From Camillea tinctor (taxonomy: Eukaryota; Ascomycota; Sordariomycetes; Xylariales; Xylariaceae): 64,000 nt of DNA. The notes under the pieces are model-generated. The model was given only the letters and a program-made list of their open reading frames with translations. It did no database searches and was not told the origin of the DNA. Below are positions 16,310 through 56,820 of the stretch, in pieces. The stretch lies in the NCBI GenBank assembly GCA_022578605.1, contig MU394067.1:496001-560000 (forward strand), written 5' to 3'. How positions within the stretch are numbered: position 1 is the first letter of the stretch; each line of letters opens with the position of its first letter. Made by a program: the position numbers and the translations under genes.

Positions 16310-16317
16310 TATTTAAG
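16310..16317 (+). promoter_or_regulatory. TATA-like element of the U2 snRNA gene
   Basis: TATTTAAG lies about 60 bp upstream of the predicted U2 5' end. It is the only TATA-like sequence in the proximal region and fits a polymerase II snRNA promoter. Assignment is by position only. Confidence 0.4.
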
Positions 16318-16373
16318 ACCTGCGCCCCCCCGCGCACCTCTTCCAAATTTCCTTTCCCTCTTTTTTTCTTTCC

Positions 16374-16640
16374 TCAGCTCTCTGTAAGTACACACTCCGA
16401 CACCCTACCATACCATTCCGCATCACGATGGCTAACCAGGCTCTACTATACAGTTGCCTTTTGGCTTAGATCAAGTGTAGTATCTGTTCTTTTCAGTTTA
16501 ATCTCTGAAAGAGTCCCATGTGGACTCAATCGTGATTATTCTAATTTTTGTTTATCCCGGGAGCGCGCTGTCCTCTGTGCTTGCGCATGACCCGCTCCCA
16601 CAGTGTCCCTGGTATTACACTGCCTCCAGGCGATGCGAAT
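16374..16640 (+). ncRNA. U2: U2 spliceosomal snRNA with a 70-nt intron
   Basis: U2 base-pairs with the intron branch site in the spliceosome. Sequence from 16454 matches fungal U2: TTGCCTTTTGGCTTAGATC of stem-loop I, the branch-recognition GTAGTA (16477-16482), the stem IIa CTGTTCTTTTCAG segment, a GAGTCC/GGACTC hairpin (16510-16527), an Sm site AATTTTTG (16543-16550), stem III GGGAGCG/CGCTCCC (16559-16565, 16593-16599) and stem IV CCTGG/CCAGG (16608-16630). The bases directly before 16454 do not match U2. They are the end of a perfect intron: GTAAGT donor at 16384, GGCTAACC branch (A at about 16435) and TATACAG acceptor ending 16453. Removing 16384-16453 joins AGCTCTCT to TTGCC and restores the conserved 5' end. 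Exon 1 is about 16374-16383. Both RNA ends are approximate. Spliced length is about 195 nt. Confidence 0.9.
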
Positions 16641-17477
16641 CCCCCGATTTTCATTGCTATCTCTGGCTTGCCCAGGGTTGCGAAGAAGATTGTCTCGACA
16701 TATTTATATGGGTGCCTACCTTTTTAGTGACCTTGAATATCTGATATGTCACTTATATGCCTAGGTAGGAATATTTATTCACACTTTGCCAGTAAACATT
16801 GATCATGTTCTATCTAGCCCCGTGAGCTATGGAGAGGAATACCGCGACTTTCTACGATTGTTACACACGCACCTCTCACGATGCTTGGGTGTAAGGTTTA
16901 CGATATTTTTCTAATTGTGTATCACATATTGCGATGGACCTATCACAACTACTAAAATATTATGCGCACAAGCAGAAACGACGCAATGCTTGTCGACTTG
17001 AGTTAATTTATAGCATCAATTACTAGAAAGACTAGCAGCTCTATAGAAACTGACCTATAAGCTAAATCTCCCATGTGAGGCAACTCTTTGAGCCCCGTTG
17101 TAGAAAAGAGTACATGCGTGTAATGTTGCTACCTTATGAAACCCCCTTCCTGCGATTGTTTGTGCAGGAAACGTCATGTAAGGTCGCCTTCATCACTGAG
17201 TGCTCGTGATGCACTATCAAGGCTCTCCTTCCTCTTCTTCCCTCCACTTCTCGTTGTGTGCATAAGAGGATGTGTTCGGCATTCTCCTTACGTTATCGCC
17301 GTGTATATGCGATAAGTAGAGAAGGCTGAGAGAGGGTAGAGGAGGAGTAGAAAGAAAAGAAAGATAGAAAAGCAATGAAAAGCTTCTCTCAGCCCAGTCA
17401 ACCTCCCAAACACCAGTTTTCCGTTACTTTGACATGATCATTAGAATCGCCCTCCAATCGTCTTAGTCGATGGTTGG
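16641..17477. other. Intergenic region between U2 and the GTPase gene
   Basis: About 0.8 kb, holding the 3' flank of U2 and the downstream region of the minus-strand GTPase gene. No further gene seen. Confidence 0.45.
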
Positions 17478-25318: not shown

Positions 25319-27534
25319 ATGTCGTGGAGAAACCAGGGCATTACCGGATCCAACAACATCCCTCTGGGGAAGAGTAGACGCTTTGGTGGCGAGGACGAAG
25401 AAGATGTTAAGAATGAAGGCAGCATTGATGACTATTCTAACGGCGATCGCGATTTGAAGCGCGGTCGCAGCCCCGAACCCAGTACGTTCCTCTCTCTCTC
25501 TTCCTTTTCTAATTTAGTATCCATTTGCATCATTCATATTCTATCGGGATTCGGATAAATGGCAGACTAACCGAACTTGTAACCATTGTAGGAACCGATG
25601 CCGATGGCCCTCGACGACGAAAGAAGCGGAACCGATGGGGTGATGCTTCGGAAAACAAAGCTGCCGGGCTTATGGGTCTTCCGACAGCTATCGTTGCCAA
25701 CATGACCAGCGAGCAACTCGAGGCTTACACTTTACATCTGCGTATCGAGGAGATCAGCCAGAAGCTGAGGATTGATGATGTCGTTCCTGCTGATGGCGAT
25801 AGGTATGCTCTATATTTACATCCTTACTCTATGAACGGTTTCCCCCGAGACCGCCAAGCACATGAAGCTAACCTGTATATTCCTAGATCCCCTTCGCCGC
25901 CGCCGCAGTACGATAACCACGGTCGCCGTGTCAACACCAGAGAATACCGCTACCGGAAGCGTCTCGAAGACGAGAGACACAAGTTGATTGAGAAGGCTAT
26001 GAAGACGATTCCTAACTACCACCCACCGCAGGATTACCGCCGGCCTACCAAGACCCAAGAAAAGGTCTACGTGCCGGTCAACGATTACCCGGAGATTAAC
26101 TTCAGTGAGATTGCTAACCCTCTAACCTTTCTAACTATACTTCTGCCCCCTCTCGTTCAGGATTTTGCTAGCAGCGCCATCGTATCTCGGTGGATGATAT
26201 TTAAATCCTGGCTACATCTAATCCTATACACGTGCTCTAACCTTATTCCTACATGTACTAACACCTAGCTTCTTCTTCCTAAAGTTGGTCTACTTATCGG
26301 CCCTCGTGGCAACACATTGAAGAAGATGGAGACAGAATCCGGTGCCAAGATTGCCATCCGCGGAAAAGGTTCCGTCAAGGAAGGCAAGGGTCGGTCTGAT
26401 GCCGCACATGCCAGTAACCAGGAGGAGGACCTCCATTGCTTGATCATGGCAGATACCGAGGAGAAAGTCAACAAGGCCAAGAAGCTGATCCACAACGTCA
26501 TTGAAACCGTAAGCTTCCCGCTGGGGTTTTGTTACCGAATATGCACTAATGCTAGTCCAGGCCGCCTCTATCCCTGAGGGTCAGAATGAGCTCAAGAGAA
26601 ACCAGCTTCGTGAGCTGGCTGCTCTCAACGGTACGCTGCGTGATGATGAGAATCAGGCTTGCCAGAACTGTGGTCAAATCGGCCACCGCAAGTATGATTG
26701 TCCCGAGAAACAGAACTTTACTGCCAATATCATCTGTCGTGTCTGTGGCAACGCTGGCCACATGGCTCGTGATTGTCCGGATAGACAGAAAGGCGCTAGC
26801 TGGCGCAATGACGGACCTCGCGCAGCGGGCCGCATCGGCGGAGGAGACGCCGTCGACCGTGAATATGAGGTAAGGATTTCTTTCTACGGATCCTGCGGTG
26901 CTATGCAAAGGGTCTGCTTGATGCTAACGTCTCTCAGCAATTCATGCAAGAACTTGGTGGCGGATCTAGCGGACCGCCAGCTCGGATTGAGGCCGGTCCT
27001 GGCTCTTACAACAATGGGGGAGGCAGTGACGCTAAGCCCTGGCAACGAGGACCGACTGGCGCTGCCGCTCCGTGGCGCTCTCGCAACAACGACCATGGCA
27101 ATGAAGGCGGCGGTAATGGCGGTGATGGCGGCGGCGGTGGTGGTTCTGCCCCGTGGCGTGAGCGTAACCGAGGCGGCGATAACCGTGGAGGTTCAGACTA
27201 CTACGGCGGTCGAGACTATAACAATGGTGCCGCCGGCGGTAGTGGTGCTGGTGGTGCCTCTGCTCCTGGTGCTGCTCCTTGGCACCAAGCACCTGCAGCT
27301 CAATCCGGCTATCCGAGCTACCCCGGCTATTCTGGGGCCTACGGTGCGGCTCCCGGCATGGGCCCCCCGCCTGGTCTCCCTGGAAATTCTCTCGGTGCAC
27401 CTCCCGGACTGCCTGGTAACCTTAATGCCTTGATTCAACAGTACGCCGGTGGTGCGGCACCACCTCCGCCGCCTGCTGGCGATGCACCTCCACCCCCTCC
27501 GAGTGATCAGCCTCCTCCCCCTCCTGGTGCTTAG
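25319..27534 (+). CDS. MSL5: Branchpoint-bridging protein (BBP/SF1)
   Basis: Six exons: 25319-25481, 25592-25802, 25887-26104, 26285-26508, 26561-26869 and 26938-27534, giving 573 aa. BBP binds the intron branch sequence in the early spliceosome and bridges to U2AF before U2 snRNP joins. Visible features: the RRRKKRNRWGD segment (SF1 helix-hairpin/ULM region), LPTAIVANMTSEQLEAY, the YPEINF-IGLLIGPRG KH domain (GPRG loop near residue 203), and two CCHC zinc knuckles (C306-C309-H314-C319 and C331-C334-H339-C344). The C-terminus is Gly-rich then Pro-rich, ending in PPPPP runs as in other SF1 proteins. Intron 3 (26105-26284, 180 nt) is much longer than the others, ends in an AAG acceptor and contains several alternative branch and acceptor sites. 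Identification is firm; intron 3 use may be alternative. Confidence 0.95.
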
Positions 27535-31726: not shown

Positions 31727-34700
31727 AATGGTATAGCATGGCATGGGCGAAGTGGAAAGTGAAGAGGGAAGAAAGGAGGGGGAGGGAAGGAAAAGGAATA
31801 ATACCAGATGAGATGGGAGAGGGGGATTAGGGGGGGAGGTGTAATTGTAGGGATCACTTGGTTGGGTTGGGTTGGCTTAGGGTAGGGTAGGGTAGGTAGA
31901 ATTGATTGAATAATTCACGTCGCGTGGCGGTTGTCTTGATTGAAAAAGATTCGATTGAATGGAAAACAAAAATGGAATAAAATAGAATGAATCGGGCTGT
32001 GAGGTAGGCGGGATGGGCGAAGAGAGGCGTAGCGGGTAGGGCAGATATTATATCGTATCAAGCTAGAGCTGGATTCGGATTGGGGAACTGCGCATTCTAA
32101 GCGGGACGAGTTCCACGCGAAGCGTGCGCAGAGATGCCGGGATAGGCATTGCCTCGGTTAGCTGCCTACGGTAGGTGGTTTATCTACGGTAGGTGTTGTA
32201 CGGACGGCTTTGTGGATCTGCAACTAGGTACGCAGTGACGGCTGGGATATAAGTATCTACCCGGGGTAGGCCGACTTACCTCGGAGTTGGGGGGTGGGGA
32301 GGAGCTGGGAGATAGGTTAGGGGGCTAGGGGGTTTAACGGTATAGCTAAGTTTGGATGGGTTATAGGCCTCCTGCTGTGGGATCGTTGTAAAAACGTCAC
32401 CTACTTAGCTCGGGGCAGGGAGGGGAGGAGGGAGGGGGGTATATGGGATATATGGTATGGAATGGAATGAATGGGAGGTCTGGGAGGTTGGTTAGGGACA
32501 CGCTTTTTTACTTGTGGGAGTGGGATTGGGATGTATGGGGGGATTGTATGGGGGATTGTTATGAACTGCTTGCTTTGCTCTTGCGGACTTTGAGATATGC
32601 GACGGATGCGCTTGTGCTGGTAGGGAATGGGGGTTAGAGTCGATAACTGGGCATATAGAGAGGTAGAGAGGTGTGGCGAGTGTGTATAGGTTATCTGCGT
32701 ATCTGTCTCTGCCTCTCTTTCTGGGAGGTAGTTATTTGAAATGTGGCGTGATGTGTGTCGAGGGAGGTGTCTGTGTAGGGTGCTGGATCAGATCGATAGA
32801 TCTGCTGGGGAGTATTCATCCGGACTGCCCTCCGGACCATGCGGTTCGTCCGGCTAAGTAGGTAGACAGGTGAGGACGACGAGTTGATATAACCTAGGTA
32901 GCTAAAGAGCTTCCCCGAGACATTCTCTTTCTCTCTGGATATGCGTGTATATTGTGGGTAGACAACTGACTGGATTACTGACCGGCGGCTTGTTTTACAT
33001 CTCCTGGGAAAAGAAATCTCCATCCCGGGTCAAATCTGTTGGGGATCTAGCGTCCTACCTACCTTTTCACATGATATTTCTTCTATAGAGCAGCAAGCCG
33101 GGGAATGAATGGGAGGGGAGCAATAGATCTCAAGACCTGTCTAGACTTCAATCCAAGGGTACGTTGTCATTTTCTGCTCTGTGTGTGTGATTCTATCCAG
33201 AGCTTGCCCTCCCAACTCTTCCACCAAATAGAAAGAAAGAAAGGAAGAGAAAAAGAGAACACCGTTGACAGATAGTCTCGAAATAGAAATGATATGCTAA
33301 CAAGGAAGAGAGGATGGGAGTTGCGACTTCAGATGCTGGCTGCTGCACTACGACGTCGAGGTGCCGGCGCATCTACTTCCGAATCGGGAGGGATGTGGAC
33401 TGGTTGGCCGGTCGGTCTACAGCGACGCGAACGATCCCATCTCAACAATTCGATCCGCGTTCTAGACGAAAGTTGCCTGGGGGGATTTTGCCTATACACA
33501 GTGTCTTTGGTATAGTGTGTCTTTGTAGAGTAGTATGGATTTAATATGGATTAGTATAGAATGGTAGTAACTGGGGGTAGCTGGATGGATGTAAATATCG
33601 GGAGAAGGGGGGAGGGGGAGGGGGTTTTAATCAAACAATCTTCTTGTAGCCGGCGATCTGATTCGCTCGTGATAATCCCTACCTACAGTAACGAACGAAA
33701 GATTGTTTGTCAGTGAAGATGGGTGGACAATTTATATAAGTTAGGTAGGGAGGAAGGTAAGAGAAAAGGAAAAGGGGGTCCAATGGTCAACTTATATAAA
33801 CATGACAAGATGTTGACGAGGGAGGCGATGGATACCTTTGATAAAACTCGAGAGATGCGGGAGTGGGCGACTGGATAAATTAAAAAGAAAACGGGTGATT
33901 GAATATGTAAATGAAACGGTGGGGGAGAGTACAGGTTCTCCGATTCTCCTCTCTTCCCAGGATGAGATAACTTTTACAGCGGCATTGGGGGGGAATCTTT
34001 AAGATCTTCTCTTATTTCTATTTTTGCTCTTCTTCCCACTTGTATCCGATCCTTGCTACTATGAGTAGCAAACACTTCAAATTATTTGTTTCAAGATGTA
34101 ATCAATAATTGCTTTTTTCTTGCTTATTTTATTCCTTCATTTGCTTCAGAGAAATTATATGATAGGTTTCCTTGCCCATGTCATCAATAATGGATCAAGG
34201 GAGTTAGGGTGTACCAGACACGAGTAAGGATCATGCTTAAGTGAAGTAAGAGAGAAGAATATAGAAAGTTGAAAGGTAGTATGTATTATATATATGAGGT
34301 GAGAGAACCTTAATTTAGATACTCCATGTTACCCGAAATGTGTTAGTTGTTTTGAAAAAGGAAATATACCAAAAAGGCCAGATGAACACCTGAAGGTCAG
34401 GAGTAGATACATGTTGATGATGATTGCTTGAGTTGACCGTGATAATCATACATAATAATATACATTCAAAAAGTACATACAACTTGAGAAGATGACACAT
34501 AACTTGCAAGACTCCGTTGTGTCAGTGTAACAACTTGAAGCATGAGCCTTTACTGGAGTTGAGATACGTTGTTAAGTAGTACAGTCGGTACTTGAGGCTG
34601 TTTTGTTTCTTTTTTTCTTTTTTTTTTTTGCCTTCTCTATCTTGCGGTGCTGCCGTTACCCATTCACCAACTTAAATCTTACCCTTGTTCATCAACCCCT

Positions 34701-39858: not shown

Positions 39859-40436
39859 ATTAGTTAGCAAGATAGCGATGGAAACACAATAACCGCCCAT
39901 CTATACGCCATTATAGTTGTTCAATCATGTATCCTATTACGGTAGATTTGGTATAGGAGGAGGCTGAGAAAGACTACATACCGGCAGGTTATATACTATA
40001 CCCTCTAGATTTGATATTCACATTATTTTCTTTATATTGAGATTCCAACCTACTTTGGAAGACTTTTTTGAAATAACGCAAGTAATTGAAAATAGCATGC
40101 GGAAATGCCCGAAGATGTGCAGAGTAGTGTATAGAATGTTAATTCATTATATTTAGATTGTCTTAATTAGTACGCTGTCTTGAATAAACGAGCTTAAAGC
40201 TGGAATTCTAGTATTATCTCTCTTATATATAAGCAAGAAGATGGTATCAAGACATATATATACACCTAACCTATGTGTATGAGTTGAAGGCGACGCTAGT
40301 GGATGCATGCGTCGTCTAGTTCTGGTAGGGTCCACTAGAGATGGAAAAAGAAAAAGCCCGGAAAAGAAAAAAAAGGGGGAATTCCTTTCCGAAGGACATT
40401 TATAATGCAAAAAGAATTTCATGTTTTCTGCTATGC
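39859..40436. other. Intergenic region with tRNA terminator
   Basis: About 0.6 kb of AT-rich sequence. A T-run on the minus strand at about 40409-40413 is the likely polymerase III terminator of the tRNA. No protein gene seen; a 176-codon minus-strand frame here runs through the tRNA and is spurious. Confidence 0.5.
40409..40413 (-). terminator. Polymerase III terminator of tRNA-Arg
   Basis: A run of five T on the minus strand about 24 bases after the tRNA 3' end, the expected polymerase III stop. Confidence 0.6.
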
Positions 40437-40528
40437 TGATCAAGATGGGGATCGAACCCACAATCTTCTGATTAACTAAACTCAATATGAGTTCGTAGTC
40501 AGACGCCTTGCCATTGGGCCACTCGACC
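40437..40528 (-). tRNA. tRNA-Arg(ACG): tRNA-Arg (anticodon ACG) with a 20-nt intron
   Basis: Cloverleaf on the minus strand. Acceptor 40528-40522 (GGTCGAG) pairs with 40444-40438 (CTTGATC, two G-U pairs). D arm GCC/GGC is at 40519-40505. Anticodon stem TCTGA/TCAGA is at 40503-40499 and 40471-40467, with loop C-T-ACG-A. T arm GTGGG-TTCGATC-CCCAT is at 40461-40445, and the discriminator A is at 40437. The intron (about 40492-40473) lies one base 3' of the anticodon, the canonical position. The mature length is 72 nt without CCA. The A34 would be edited to inosine to read CGU/CGC/CGA codons. Confidence 0.9.
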
Positions 40529-42594
40529 ATTTGAGAGATGCTGGTAGATCCCTGCAAGTGAAAACTCTGCGATCGACTTTCTGATGCTCGATGGAAACAA
40601 TAAAGGCTTAAAATAATCCATATACTTCCCATATAAGTGGGAATAAGATTTTGAAATATTTCGGCAACATGAAAAATACACAACTTAGATGTTCACCAGT
40701 AAAACCATTGTCTAGAGTTTTTCAAGTTTACAATAACTCTAGTTTCTCGCGATCTGATTACGCAGTCTTCAAGAACTGCTGGGTTTAACATGGTGCATCC
40801 TAGATACGTACCTGCTTTAGGGCACCTATAAAGTCAAAAAGGGGCTCATTAATTGCCACAACACACAACACTGTCAAGTTTTATATGTATGGTGATTCAC
40901 GATTTGGTATAGTCCAATGATAGGCAAATCATTTGGTTAATATGGGGAATCACAAAGGAGTTATGTCCAAGTTGCGTACTTTATCTAGCACTGTAAAGAC
41001 ATTTGTTTATACTTCGGGTAGGTATTGAAACCAAATCACTCACATTTAGTACAAGCTCTCATCGACCAGACATCGTACTACACATGATGAACAAGCCAAA
41101 TTTCATAGAGGCATCAAGTGTTTAACTCGAGACAACAAAGTATCGTTTCGAGCAGGATAACTGGTTCCAGCTAGTGTACCACATATTTCCTATCATTGTT
41201 CCATTACTGGTCCGACGAGCCATGGGTCCAGAGAAGTTCGGATAATTTCCGTTTGTAAAAGACACGAGTTGTATCAGCATTTCGCGCTATTCGCGGCTCT
41301 ATTTCCTAACATTTTTAAGTTGAGGAGTTGAATGTAGTCATACTGCATAGGTGCAAACTGTTTAAATCTTCGCAGATCGCAACCCACTGTTGGCCGTGGC
41401 TGTTGTAATGTGAGGCGTGCGGCGGTGAGGATTGGATGGTGCAAATAGTCTGTTCATTGGTGTACTTTTAGTTCCGGTCACCAAAATGTTAGAGAGCGGG
41501 AATAACAACTCAGATCAAAAATCTAGGTAATATCTACCTACTGTGGTGCAAATCTGTTTACTTAGAATCTTCGGCGTCTCTCGAATCTACGGTTCACCAA
41601 CCAATGCAACTACTTATTGGCTATTGCTATCACACTATAGTCAGGGATGGCTCGAGCTCCGACCACGTTTTTTCTCTGCATTGAGGAGGTAAAATTAATG
41701 ACGGTGTTATCCTTTTTCATTCAGAGTTCTGCCAGAATTTTTCGAAATTTTTAATGGACGACGCGTCTACGAAGTCTCTTTTTAGTAACTCAAAGCCGTA
41801 TAGCTTGAAGAAATGACGTCTTATGTGGAAATGCTTCACACCAACTATACAAAATCTTCACGAAAATCAGACGGAGGCTAGGGCTGCTTACTAGTGTCTT
41901 CAGCTAGTATCACGACCAACATACCACGTACGTGCAAAAATAATGCCTAAATAATCCACTATGAAGTCAGCCCTGGAGACTGAACGGACATAAAAGCTTG
42001 CATAAGGGTTATACTCGCGCTGGACCCGTTGTTAGAAGCACCGAGAGGAGAGACAATGGGTCAATGTATCCCCCCTGGTCGCCGTATTCTCGGGCGACGG
42101 ATCCGGCCTGCTCTATGTGGGTCACGCTTGTTGAGGCTCTAGCAGCAGACCCTCACTACTCACCTCTGGCCTGACGATCTCCGACTTCAACCCCGTATGG
42201 AGTGTTTGCGTGGTGTTGAAAAGAAAATCAAATCATGAGAACACTCGCACGATTCAAAGTCTGGTCAAATGGGGGGTAAAATGGCTTGACCGGCTTTTAT
42301 ACGATGCATCGTCAGGAGAGCTGAGCGGTTATGTCGGAGTTTGGCTCGCCTTGATGCATCCACGGCGAGATCACGGCGATATGGTGGACCGCGACCCAGG
42401 TGGTCCACTGTTGTGACGACCATCGTCTAGTGGCTCTTGCACCACGATCGGGAGGAGGTAGTTATCGTATCAGCTATGATACGGACACAAAAGATACGGC
42501 TTCGGCACTCTCTCATCTGGAATTCGCCTCATCCAGATATCCTCACTCCTTGTCTGTCTATCATCACAGCCCAGCCTACCTCGCATCTTTCATC
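40529..42594. other. AT-rich intergenic region and MFS promoter
   Basis: About 2 kb, AT-rich with dense stops from 40700 to about 42000. The part after 42100 is more GC-rich and is probably the promoter and leader of the transporter. No gene seen. Confidence 0.45.
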
Positions 42595-54626: not shown

Positions 54627-56820
54627 ATGTCGGAGACCTTCGAGTTTCAGGCTGAGATCTCTCAGCTCCTGTCTCTCATTATCAACACCGTCTACTCCAA
54701 CAAGGAGATCTTCCTTAGAGAATTGGTGTCCAATGCCTCCGATGCCCTCGACAAGATCCGATATGAGGCTCTGTCCGACCCTAGCAAGCTTGACTCTGCT
54801 AAGGACCTCCGCATCGACATCATCCCCGACAAGGAGAACAAGACCCTTACCATCCGGGATACCGGTATTGGTATGACCAAGGCTGTAAGTAGTTACCCAC
54901 ATAATCCCTTGCCTTTGCTTCTGCACCCTACTTTGTGACCCGTAACTAACCTTACATGAATAGGACCTTGTCAACAACCTGGGTACCATTGCCCGATCTG
55001 GTACCAAGCAGTTTATGGAGGCTCTCACTGCCGGTGCTGATGTCTCCATGATTGGTCAGTTTGGTGTTGGTTTCTACTCTGCCTACCTCGTTGCCGACCG
55101 GGTTACCGTTATCTCCAAGCACAACGATGACGAGCAGTACATCTGGGAGTCGTCTGCTGGTGGTACCTTCAGCGTCCGCCCTGACACCGAGGGTGAGAAA
55201 CTTGGCCGTGGTAGCAAGATGATTCTCCACCTCAAGGATGAGCAGTCTGAGTACCTCAACGAGAGCAAGATCAAGGAAGTCATCAAGAAGCACTCCGAGT
55301 TCATCTCCTACCCCATCTACCTCCACGTCAAGAAGGAGACCGAGAAGGAGATCCCTGATGAGGATGCTGAGGATGCTGAAGAGGTTAAGGAGGGTGAAGA
55401 TGACAAGAAGCCCAAGATCGAGGAGGTCGATGATGAGGGTGAGGAGAAAGAGAAGAAGAAGAAGACTAAGAAGATCACTGAGACCTCCATCGAGGAGGAG
55501 GAGCTCAACAAGCAGAAGCCCATCTGGACCCGCAACCCCCAGGACATCACCCAGGAGGAGTATGCTGCCTTCTACAAGTCTCTCTCCAACGACTGGGAGG
55601 ACCACCTTGGTGTCAAGCACTTCTCGGTCGAGGGTCAGCTTGAGTTCCGTGCCATTCTGTTCGTTCCCAAGCGTGCTCCCTTCGACCTCTTCGAGACCAA
55701 GAAGACCAAGAACAACATCAAGCTCTACGTCCGCCGTGTCTTCATCACTGACGATGCCACCGACCTCATCCCCGAGTGGCTCGGCTTCGTCAAGGGTGTT
55801 GTCGACTCTGAGGATCTCCCTCTCAACCTGTCTCGTGAGACCCTTCAGCAGAACAAGATCATGAAGGTCATCAAGAAGAACATTGTCAAGAAGGCCCTAG
55901 AGCTCTTCAACGAGATTGCTGAGGACAAGGAGCAGTTCGACAAGTTCTACAGCGCCTTCTCCAAGAACCTGAAGCTGGGTATCCACGAGGACTCGCAGAA
56001 CCGACAGGTTCTTGCCAAGCTTCTCCGCTTCAACTCGACCAAGTCTGGCGATGAGCAGACCTCGCTGTCTGACTACGTCACCCGCATGGCTGAGCACCAG
56101 AAGAACATGTACTACATCACTGGCGAGTCTCTCAAGGCTGTTCAGAAGTCTCCCTTCTTGGACGCCCTCAAGGAGAAGAACTTCGAGGTTCTCTTCCTAG
56201 TTGACCCTATTGACGAGTACGCCATGACTCAGCTGAAGGAGTTCGAGGGCAAGAAGCTCGTTGATATCACCAAGGACTTCGACCTCGAGGAGACTGAGGA
56301 GGAGAAGAAGGCTCGTGAGGCCGAGGAGAAGGAGTACGAGGACCTTGCCAAGGCTCTCAAGAACGTTCTCGGCGACAAGGTTGAGAAGGTCGTCGTCTCT
56401 CACAAGCTCGTCGGCTCTCCTTGTGCCATCCGAACTGGCCAGTTCGGTTGGTCCGCTAACATGGAGCGTATCATGAAGGCTCAGGCTCTCCGCGATACCT
56501 CGATGAGCAGCTACATGAGCTCCAAGAAGACCTTCGAGATCTCGCCCAAGTCTCCTATCATTAAGGAGCTCAAGAAGAAGGTCGAGGCCGATGGCGAGAA
56601 CGACAAGACCGTCAAGTCTATCGTTCAGCTTCTCTTCGAGACCTCTCTGCTAGTCTCTGGCTTCACCATTGACGAGCCCGCCGGTTTTGCCGAACGCATC
56701 CACAAGCTTGTCTCGCTCGGTCTTAACCTTGACGAGGAGGCTGAGGTTGAGGAGGTCCCGGCCACTGCCGAGACTGCTGCTGCCGAGACTGGTGACAGCG
56801 CTATGGAGGAGGTTGACTAA
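54627..56820 (+). CDS. HSP90: Heat shock protein 90
   Basis: Two exons, 54627-54884 and 54964-56820, encode 704 aa, the normal cytosolic HSP90 length. The ATP-driven chaperone dimer matures kinases, receptors and many signalling clients. The N-terminal GHKL ATPase domain has [21 protein letters not shown] (ATP Glu and Asn), DTGIGM and [15 protein letters not shown] (lid and nucleotide loop). A highly charged Glu/Lys linker spans about residues 215-265. The middle domain has [19 protein letters not shown], including the catalytic-loop Arg. The C-terminal dimerisation domain ends MEEVD, the TPR co-chaperone docking tail. The single 79-nt coding intron follows the DTGIGMTKA motif. Codon use is strongly biased to C/G endings, as in highly expressed genes. 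Heat shock control is supported by the upstream element. Confidence 0.98.

Follow-up and report, generated by a model that had tools for sequence, protein, structure and literature searches.

A copy of the U2 snRNA gene in the fungus Camillea tinctor, a member of the Xylariales, appears to be alive and to have gained a 70-nt spliceosomal intron, a reading to which we give a probability of roughly 85%. The copy lies in a 64,000-nucleotide stretch of contig MU394067.1, hereafter the window, and to judge from its letters it probably needs the splicing machine to become part of the splicing machine. The elements of the locus are listed below.

16310..16315, plus strand: TATA-like box TATTTA, 66 nt upstream of AGCTC
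16376..16383, plus strand: exon 1, AGCTCTCT, the U2 5' end (+1 approximate), the same in all five U2 genes found
16384..16453, plus strand: intron of spliceosomal type, 70 nt, GTAAGT...TACAG, from the sequence and from boundary and excision tests
16384-16389, plus strand: GTAAGT donor, from the letters
16432..16436, plus strand: branch-site motif CTAAC, with the branch A at 16435, 18 nt before the intron end
Ending at 16453, plus strand: acceptor TATACAG, from the letters
16454..16644, plus strand: exon 2, the remaining U2 (distal stem I, branch recognition, IIa/IIb, Sm-type site, III, IV), from Rfam and the alignment, with the 3' end as in the Rfam match
16477..16482, plus strand: U2 branch-site recognition sequence GTAGTA, unchanged in all five copies
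16543..16550, plus strand: Sm-type site AATTTTTG, from the letters and the copy alignment
16647..16692, plus strand: 3'-flanking hairpin, from covariation and a covariance-model hit of 60.3 bits

The Rfam U2 model (RF00004) matches the unspliced sequence at 16448-16644 of the plus strand with 127.7 bits, well past its gathering cut-off of 46 bits, and permissive filters return the same match. The features by which a member of this family is recognized are present in the window copy, namely the GUAGUA branch recognition sequence, the Sm-type site and the stems IIa, IIb, III and IV. The first positions of the model fit poorly: ATACAGT is used for them, and three positions are deleted before TGCCTTTTGGC. 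The original prediction had placed the missing 5' end 70 nt upstream, which is borne out, as AGCTCTCT at 16376-16383 matches the four intronless paralogs described below. At the locus, AGCTCTCT from 16376 is followed by GTAAGT, the 70 nt run on to a terminal TACAG at 16453, and TTGCCTTTTGGCTTAGATC, which begins with TTGCC, continues the gene. Counting from AGCTC, the intron follows nucleotide 8 and precedes nucleotide 9. All landmarks that had been claimed, i.e. GTAAGT, CTAAC 18 nt before the acceptor, TATACAG and the U2 sequence from 16454 on, are found in the letters, and the GT donor, branch motif and AG acceptor stand at the usual distances.

In the assembly (44,688,122 bases in 154 contigs; all gene counts given here are lower bounds), five U2 matches to RF00004 were found, with 159.4, 156.0 (the copy on C24), 132.1, 129.8 and, for the window copy, 127.7 bits. 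A search with a 20-base U2 pattern, allowing up to three mismatches, returned the same five loci from the genome and three further ones with three mismatches, which we take for chance matches, a reversed control pattern having given four. The sequence AGCTCTCTTTGCC is uninterrupted in all four other copies (C2, C24, C6 and C37) and is precisely what deleting 16384-16453 produces; over the first 60 alignment columns the window copy minus the 70 nt is identical to C2 and C24. Two of the copies are divergent: C6 has ATCATGTGTAGTA in place of ATCAAGTGTAGTA, and C37 carries TCAT for TTTT in loop I. The exactness of the excision was evaluated with a profile of the four intronless copies, covering the first 100 nt of each and used in place of the Rfam model. 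This profile scores the unspliced sequence at 86.1 bits and the exact GT..AG excision at 96.2 bits. Among 2520 trial deletions of 60-80 nt, 2221 of which gave a hit, the exact excision was the best, followed by a runner-up at 94.2 bits, and the intron boundaries cannot be moved by even one base in either direction. The claim of a spliceosomal intron in U2 therefore holds in the sense that comparison with four intronless paralogs makes the intron exact and complete in its signals, from which its splicing is inferred. The locus should be described as one intron-bearing copy among five found and not as "the" U2 gene.

How this distribution arose is best approached from the copies themselves. In a tree of the five, calculated from exon 2 and the 3' flank, the window copy groups with C24, while C2 and the C6/C37 pair lie on the opposite side (ultrafast bootstrap values of 81 and 94). 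A single gain explains this most simply and is weakly favoured, given five sequences, modest support and the possibility of gene conversion. The intron may instead be ancient, the four remaining copies having lost it, for instance through gene conversion by an intronless U2 cDNA. Such losses would be compatible with a live, intron-bearing window copy, and other fungi do have introns in snRNA genes (U6 of S. pombe, PMC10484740, and a U2 case); the tree, on which one gain stands against at least three losses, nevertheless makes this history rather improbable.

The original prediction had located the intron in stem-loop I. It lies at the base of this stem-loop and at the same time inside the U2 strand that is predicted to pair with U6 as helix II, which it splits. 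The 3' part of U6, CAAAGAGAAGCT, is complementary to the spliced U2 sequence AGCTCTCTTTG with one bulged A, giving 11 pairs and -12.1 kcal/mol. Of the unspliced alternatives, exon 1 alone forms 8 pairs with U6 (-8.0 kcal/mol) and the intron end plus UUG forms 4 (-1.5 kcal/mol). With longer strands, in which further pairs join, the values are -15.7 for the spliced form, equal to that of an intronless copy, -9.5 for exon 1 and -5.1 for the intron end. Since exon 1 would let an unspliced RNA keep 8 of the 11 pairs of helix II, the loss of pairing would be partial rather than complete, although stem I would be broken as well. Folded as an isolated 30-mer, stem I reaches -7.7 in the spliced form, and the 3' part of the unspliced form reaches -4.4.

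Downstream of the U2 sequence, the window copy shares a hairpin with other small RNA genes of this genome. An element of the form TTTCATT...hairpin...TGAAGAAG follows five U2, four U1 and two U4 genes. The motif search caught 10 of the 12 genes of Pol II type; U2 on C6 was missed and added by hand from the copy alignment, and no such hairpin is visible behind U5 in this search of the given Pol II-type genes. In the named structure, which was derived from the same sequences on which it was evaluated, 97.1% of the cells are paired against 81.3% after shuffling and at most 67.7% in slid versions; likewise its covariation score is 0.581 against 0.255 when shuffled, a value reached in 0 of 500 shuffles, and slid versions stay at 0.166 or below. 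A covariance model built from the 11 sequences and run on the window and 17 loci recovers all 11 of its training copies, with the window copy, itself part of the training set, on top at 60.3 bits. The model also matches behind both U3 snoRNA genes, which were outside the training set (50.6 and 31.9 bits). Up to an E value of 1 it finds nothing at the U5 or U6 loci and no further match in the window; two weak hits with E values of 0.35 and 0.56 are likely due to chance. The shared hairpin probably serves small RNA genes of Pol II type as a signal for 3'-end processing. By analogy with yeasts, an enzyme of the RNase III type probably cuts it.

Several properties of the window copy bear on whether it is alive. 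Within exon 2 (columns 1-192, counting positions at which the other four copies agree), it has 0 private changes, as has C24, while C2 has 4, C6 has 9 and C37 has 12; as the window copy and C24 are close relatives, the count is lowered for both. The 3' hairpin of the window copy contains one private change. Its stems are intact, with 6 of 6 pairs in IIa, 6 of 6 in IIb and 16 of 16 in the 3' hairpin. Of the 63 pairs that RNAalifold predicts for the consensus, 15 have both partners changed without loss of pairing, and because this fold includes long-range pairs outside the accepted U2 structure, only IIb, III and the 3' hairpin are relied upon. The TATA-like box lies 66 nt upstream of AGCTC, compared with 53, 58, 63 and 77 nt in the other U2 copies. 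With its TATA box, paired stems, conserved exon 2 and 3' hairpin, the window copy looks alive, so far as this can be read from sequence.

The gene could also be a decaying copy, broken by the insertion, whose intron is removed inefficiently while the four intronless genes do the work. These four could indeed supply all U2, exon 1 is very short, and 8 of the 11 helix II pairs would survive without splicing. Decay is hard to reconcile, though, with the lack of private changes at the conserved exon 2 positions, the full pairing of IIa, IIb and the 3' hairpin, the intact splice signals and a TATA box at a normal distance from exon 1, and we regard it as improbable. The original prediction had named, as evidence that would speak against it, an intact intronless U2 elsewhere combined with silence of the window copy. 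The first half was found, in four of the five copies; the other half, silence, is what the TATA box, the stems and the 3' hairpin argue against.

Very improbable, in our estimate, is an RNA whose 5' end lies inside the 70 nt, that is, an unspliced U2 with a different beginning. RF00004 is able to place ATACAGTTGCC as the 5' end of the unspliced window copy. Such an RNA would keep only the 4 pairs (-1.5 kcal/mol) with the U6 strand and lose the lower stem I, the spacing of the TATA box is kept relative to exon 1 and not to exon 2, and the conservation of AGCTCTCT would have no reason. That the 70 nt are an assembly artefact has a smaller chance still, as a random error would not set GTAAGT, CTAAC and CAG exactly at the boundary that restores U2, and the 70 nt are found nowhere else in the assembly.

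If the window copy is indeed alive and spliced, RNA polymerase II would transcribe a pre-U2 from it. The U1 and U2 snRNPs would bind GTAAGT and CTAAC as they do in a pre-mRNA, the U2 coming from the four intronless copies; since these exist, splicing of the window copy poses no chicken-and-egg problem. Splicing would then join AGCUCUCU to UUGCC and so complete stem-loop I at its base as well as the helix II strand that pairs with U6, and the 3' end would be formed through the shared downstream hairpin. The sequence, the exact excision, the paralogs, the predicted pairings and the covariation are observed; we infer transcription, splicing and function in this scheme from the exactness and the conservation.

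To see whether the intron is normal for this genome, it was compared with the U6 intron (60 nt) and with five introns from three protein-coding genes of the window: one of 79 nt in HSP90 (frame 55015-56820), mapped with a Camillea tinctor protein to which the frame is 100% identical throughout its length; one of 56 nt in a DH-domain gene, mapped with a Biscogniauxia protein; and three of 110, 52 and 68 nt in SF1, placed by the reading frame between flanking peptide words. In a protein search with another gene, the best 120 of 465 matches included no Camillea entry and were headed by Biscogniauxia mediterranea at 86%. A 180-nt SF1 intron and a 53-nt candidate at a PFF1 frame junction were set aside from this comparison. 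The donors of the comparison introns are GTAAGT (U6), GTAAGT, GTAACC, GTACGT, GTAAGC and GTAAGG, their branch A lies 9 to 21 nt from the intron end, and the lengths range from 52 to 110 nt in the protein genes, with 60 nt in U6. The U2 intron, with GTAAGT, CTAAC, a branch distance of 18 nt, CAG and a length of 70 nt, fits the other introns of the genome. On the exon side, its donor is preceded by CTCT, unlike the usual AAG. An AG 4 nt past the branch A needs to be skipped if the acceptor at 16453 is used, and with the A as +1 exon 1 would span only some 8 nt, a shortness that may weaken splicing near the cap.

A strict signature (GTAAGT, CTAAC and YAG within 50-120 nt) occurs at four places on the two strands of the window: the U2 intron, the mapped HSP90 intron, a candidate at the junction of two PFF1 reading frames, and 18297-18222 on the minus strand. 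In 60 Markov resamplings the same signature occurred 0.75 times on average. Since it reached a maximum of 5 there, the signature alone proves little, and it is the exact placement within U2 that counts. One of the set-aside introns, in SF1 at 26105-26284 (180 nt), contains several CTAAC motifs and inner AG sites and is possibly nested or alternative. SF1/BBP is the branch-point binding protein; its gene, at about 25400-27534 and recognized by Pfam SF1-HH and zinc knuckles, lies about 9 kb from the window copy of U2.

Mobile sources of the intron were considered as well. A genome search with the 70 nt, at E values up to 10, found no second copy but only the intron itself, on which basis membership in an introner family or in a family of sequence-similar stwintrons was rejected. 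No inverted repeat of at least 8 nt is present, which speaks against a symmetrical (stw)intron of the Hypoxylaceae kind; the self-complementarity of the intron, 6.0, was equalled or exceeded in 454 of 500 shuffles. A DNA-transposon-like introner was likewise dismissed, as no target-site duplication was seen at the intron borders and 16344-16493 contains no direct repeat of at least 8 nt.

The other spliceosomal RNAs were inspected for comparable interruptions. The sole U6 match found (C10:489447-489606) contains a 60-nt insertion, GTAAGT...CTAAC...CACAG, between ACAGAGAAGAT and TAGCATGG, directly behind the ACAGAGA box and at a site which we take to be beside helix I. This intron holds GTTCGAATC, which resembles a Pol III promoter B box; in S. 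pombe, a B box likewise lies within the U6 intron. The matches to U1 (4), U4 (2), U5 (1) and U3 (2) cover their models and show no intron-sized gap, a call that for U5 and for U1, which scored below the gathering score, rests on match length and sequence; both U3 matches have insertions in a variable region, of at most about 31 nt in one copy. Intron-bearing genes thus make up 2 of the 13 spliceosomal snRNA genes found (4 U1, 5 U2, 2 U4, 1 U5 and 1 U6). Among the U1 genes, a divergent copy on C144, a contig of 17 kb, starts with CAAACTTACCTTG for CATACTTACCTTG and lacks the TATA-like motif searched for.

In both interrupted genes, U6 and the window copy of U2, the intron falls inside or beside a region of U2-U6 pairing. 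It is conceivable, albeit tentatively and on the unlikely side, that the spliceosome reverse-spliced the intron into the U2 strand of a U2/U6 duplex and that the product was copied back into one of the five genes. The insertion site in helix II makes such an entry at the RNA core of the spliceosome testable. Were this origin true, the copy would need U2 to make U2, coupling the supply of U2 to splicing capacity.

The U2 intron of the basidiomycete yeast Rhodotorula hasegawae reportedly sits just downstream of the branch-recognition region. It resembles the Camillea intron in being an mRNA-type intron inside a U2 gene; it differs in its site, as the Camillea intron interrupts the 5' strand of helix II and stem I and does not lie past branch recognition. 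Camillea is moreover a filamentous ascomycete, and the intron is present in one of the five copies found. The R. hasegawae case was described by Takahashi et al. (1993, Mol Cell Biol 13:5613), as cited in PMC2586383. Introns of mRNA type are well known in U6 genes. The U6 intron of S. pombe is thought to have arisen by reverse splicing near catalytic nucleotides (PMC10484740). Introns of this type resemble the one in the window copy in that they interrupt an RNA of the spliceosome near its catalytic core, and U6 of Camillea is interrupted in the same manner; U6, in contrast, is a Pol III gene of which one copy was found here, whereas U2 is of Pol II type and has intronless paralogs. New introns of the stwintron and introner-like kinds, without target-site duplication, have been described in Hypoxylaceae and Xylariaceae (PMC8469720, PMC12403724), from which the Camillea U2 intron differs in being single-copy and without an inverted repeat, no nested structure being apparent in it. 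In the accessible text of these articles, the word snRNA occurs 0 times in the former and twice in the latter, in its introduction only.

The original prediction knew of no well-described U2 intron in this fungal group; the open-licence literature searched likewise yielded none from an ascomycete. A 27-base U2 pattern was found at 0 places in the viral and 0 in the prokaryote record collections, both of them non-fungal. What appears to be new is the intron site, relative to the one reported for R. hasegawae, the fungal group, and the restriction to one U2 copy out of the five. The gain of introns in general is illuminated by cases in which the intron-removing RNAs are themselves interrupted, and here four uninterrupted U2 copies in the same genome provide a natural control for the interrupted one. 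The window copy would also be a U2 gene that relies on U2 for its own product.

Two further observations were made elsewhere in the window. A tRNA gene at 40435-40529 on the minus strand has an intron-like insertion, and its anticodon is ambiguous in ARAGORN. The 2-kb step 32001-34000 stands out from the rest of the window by a strong GC skew (0.333).
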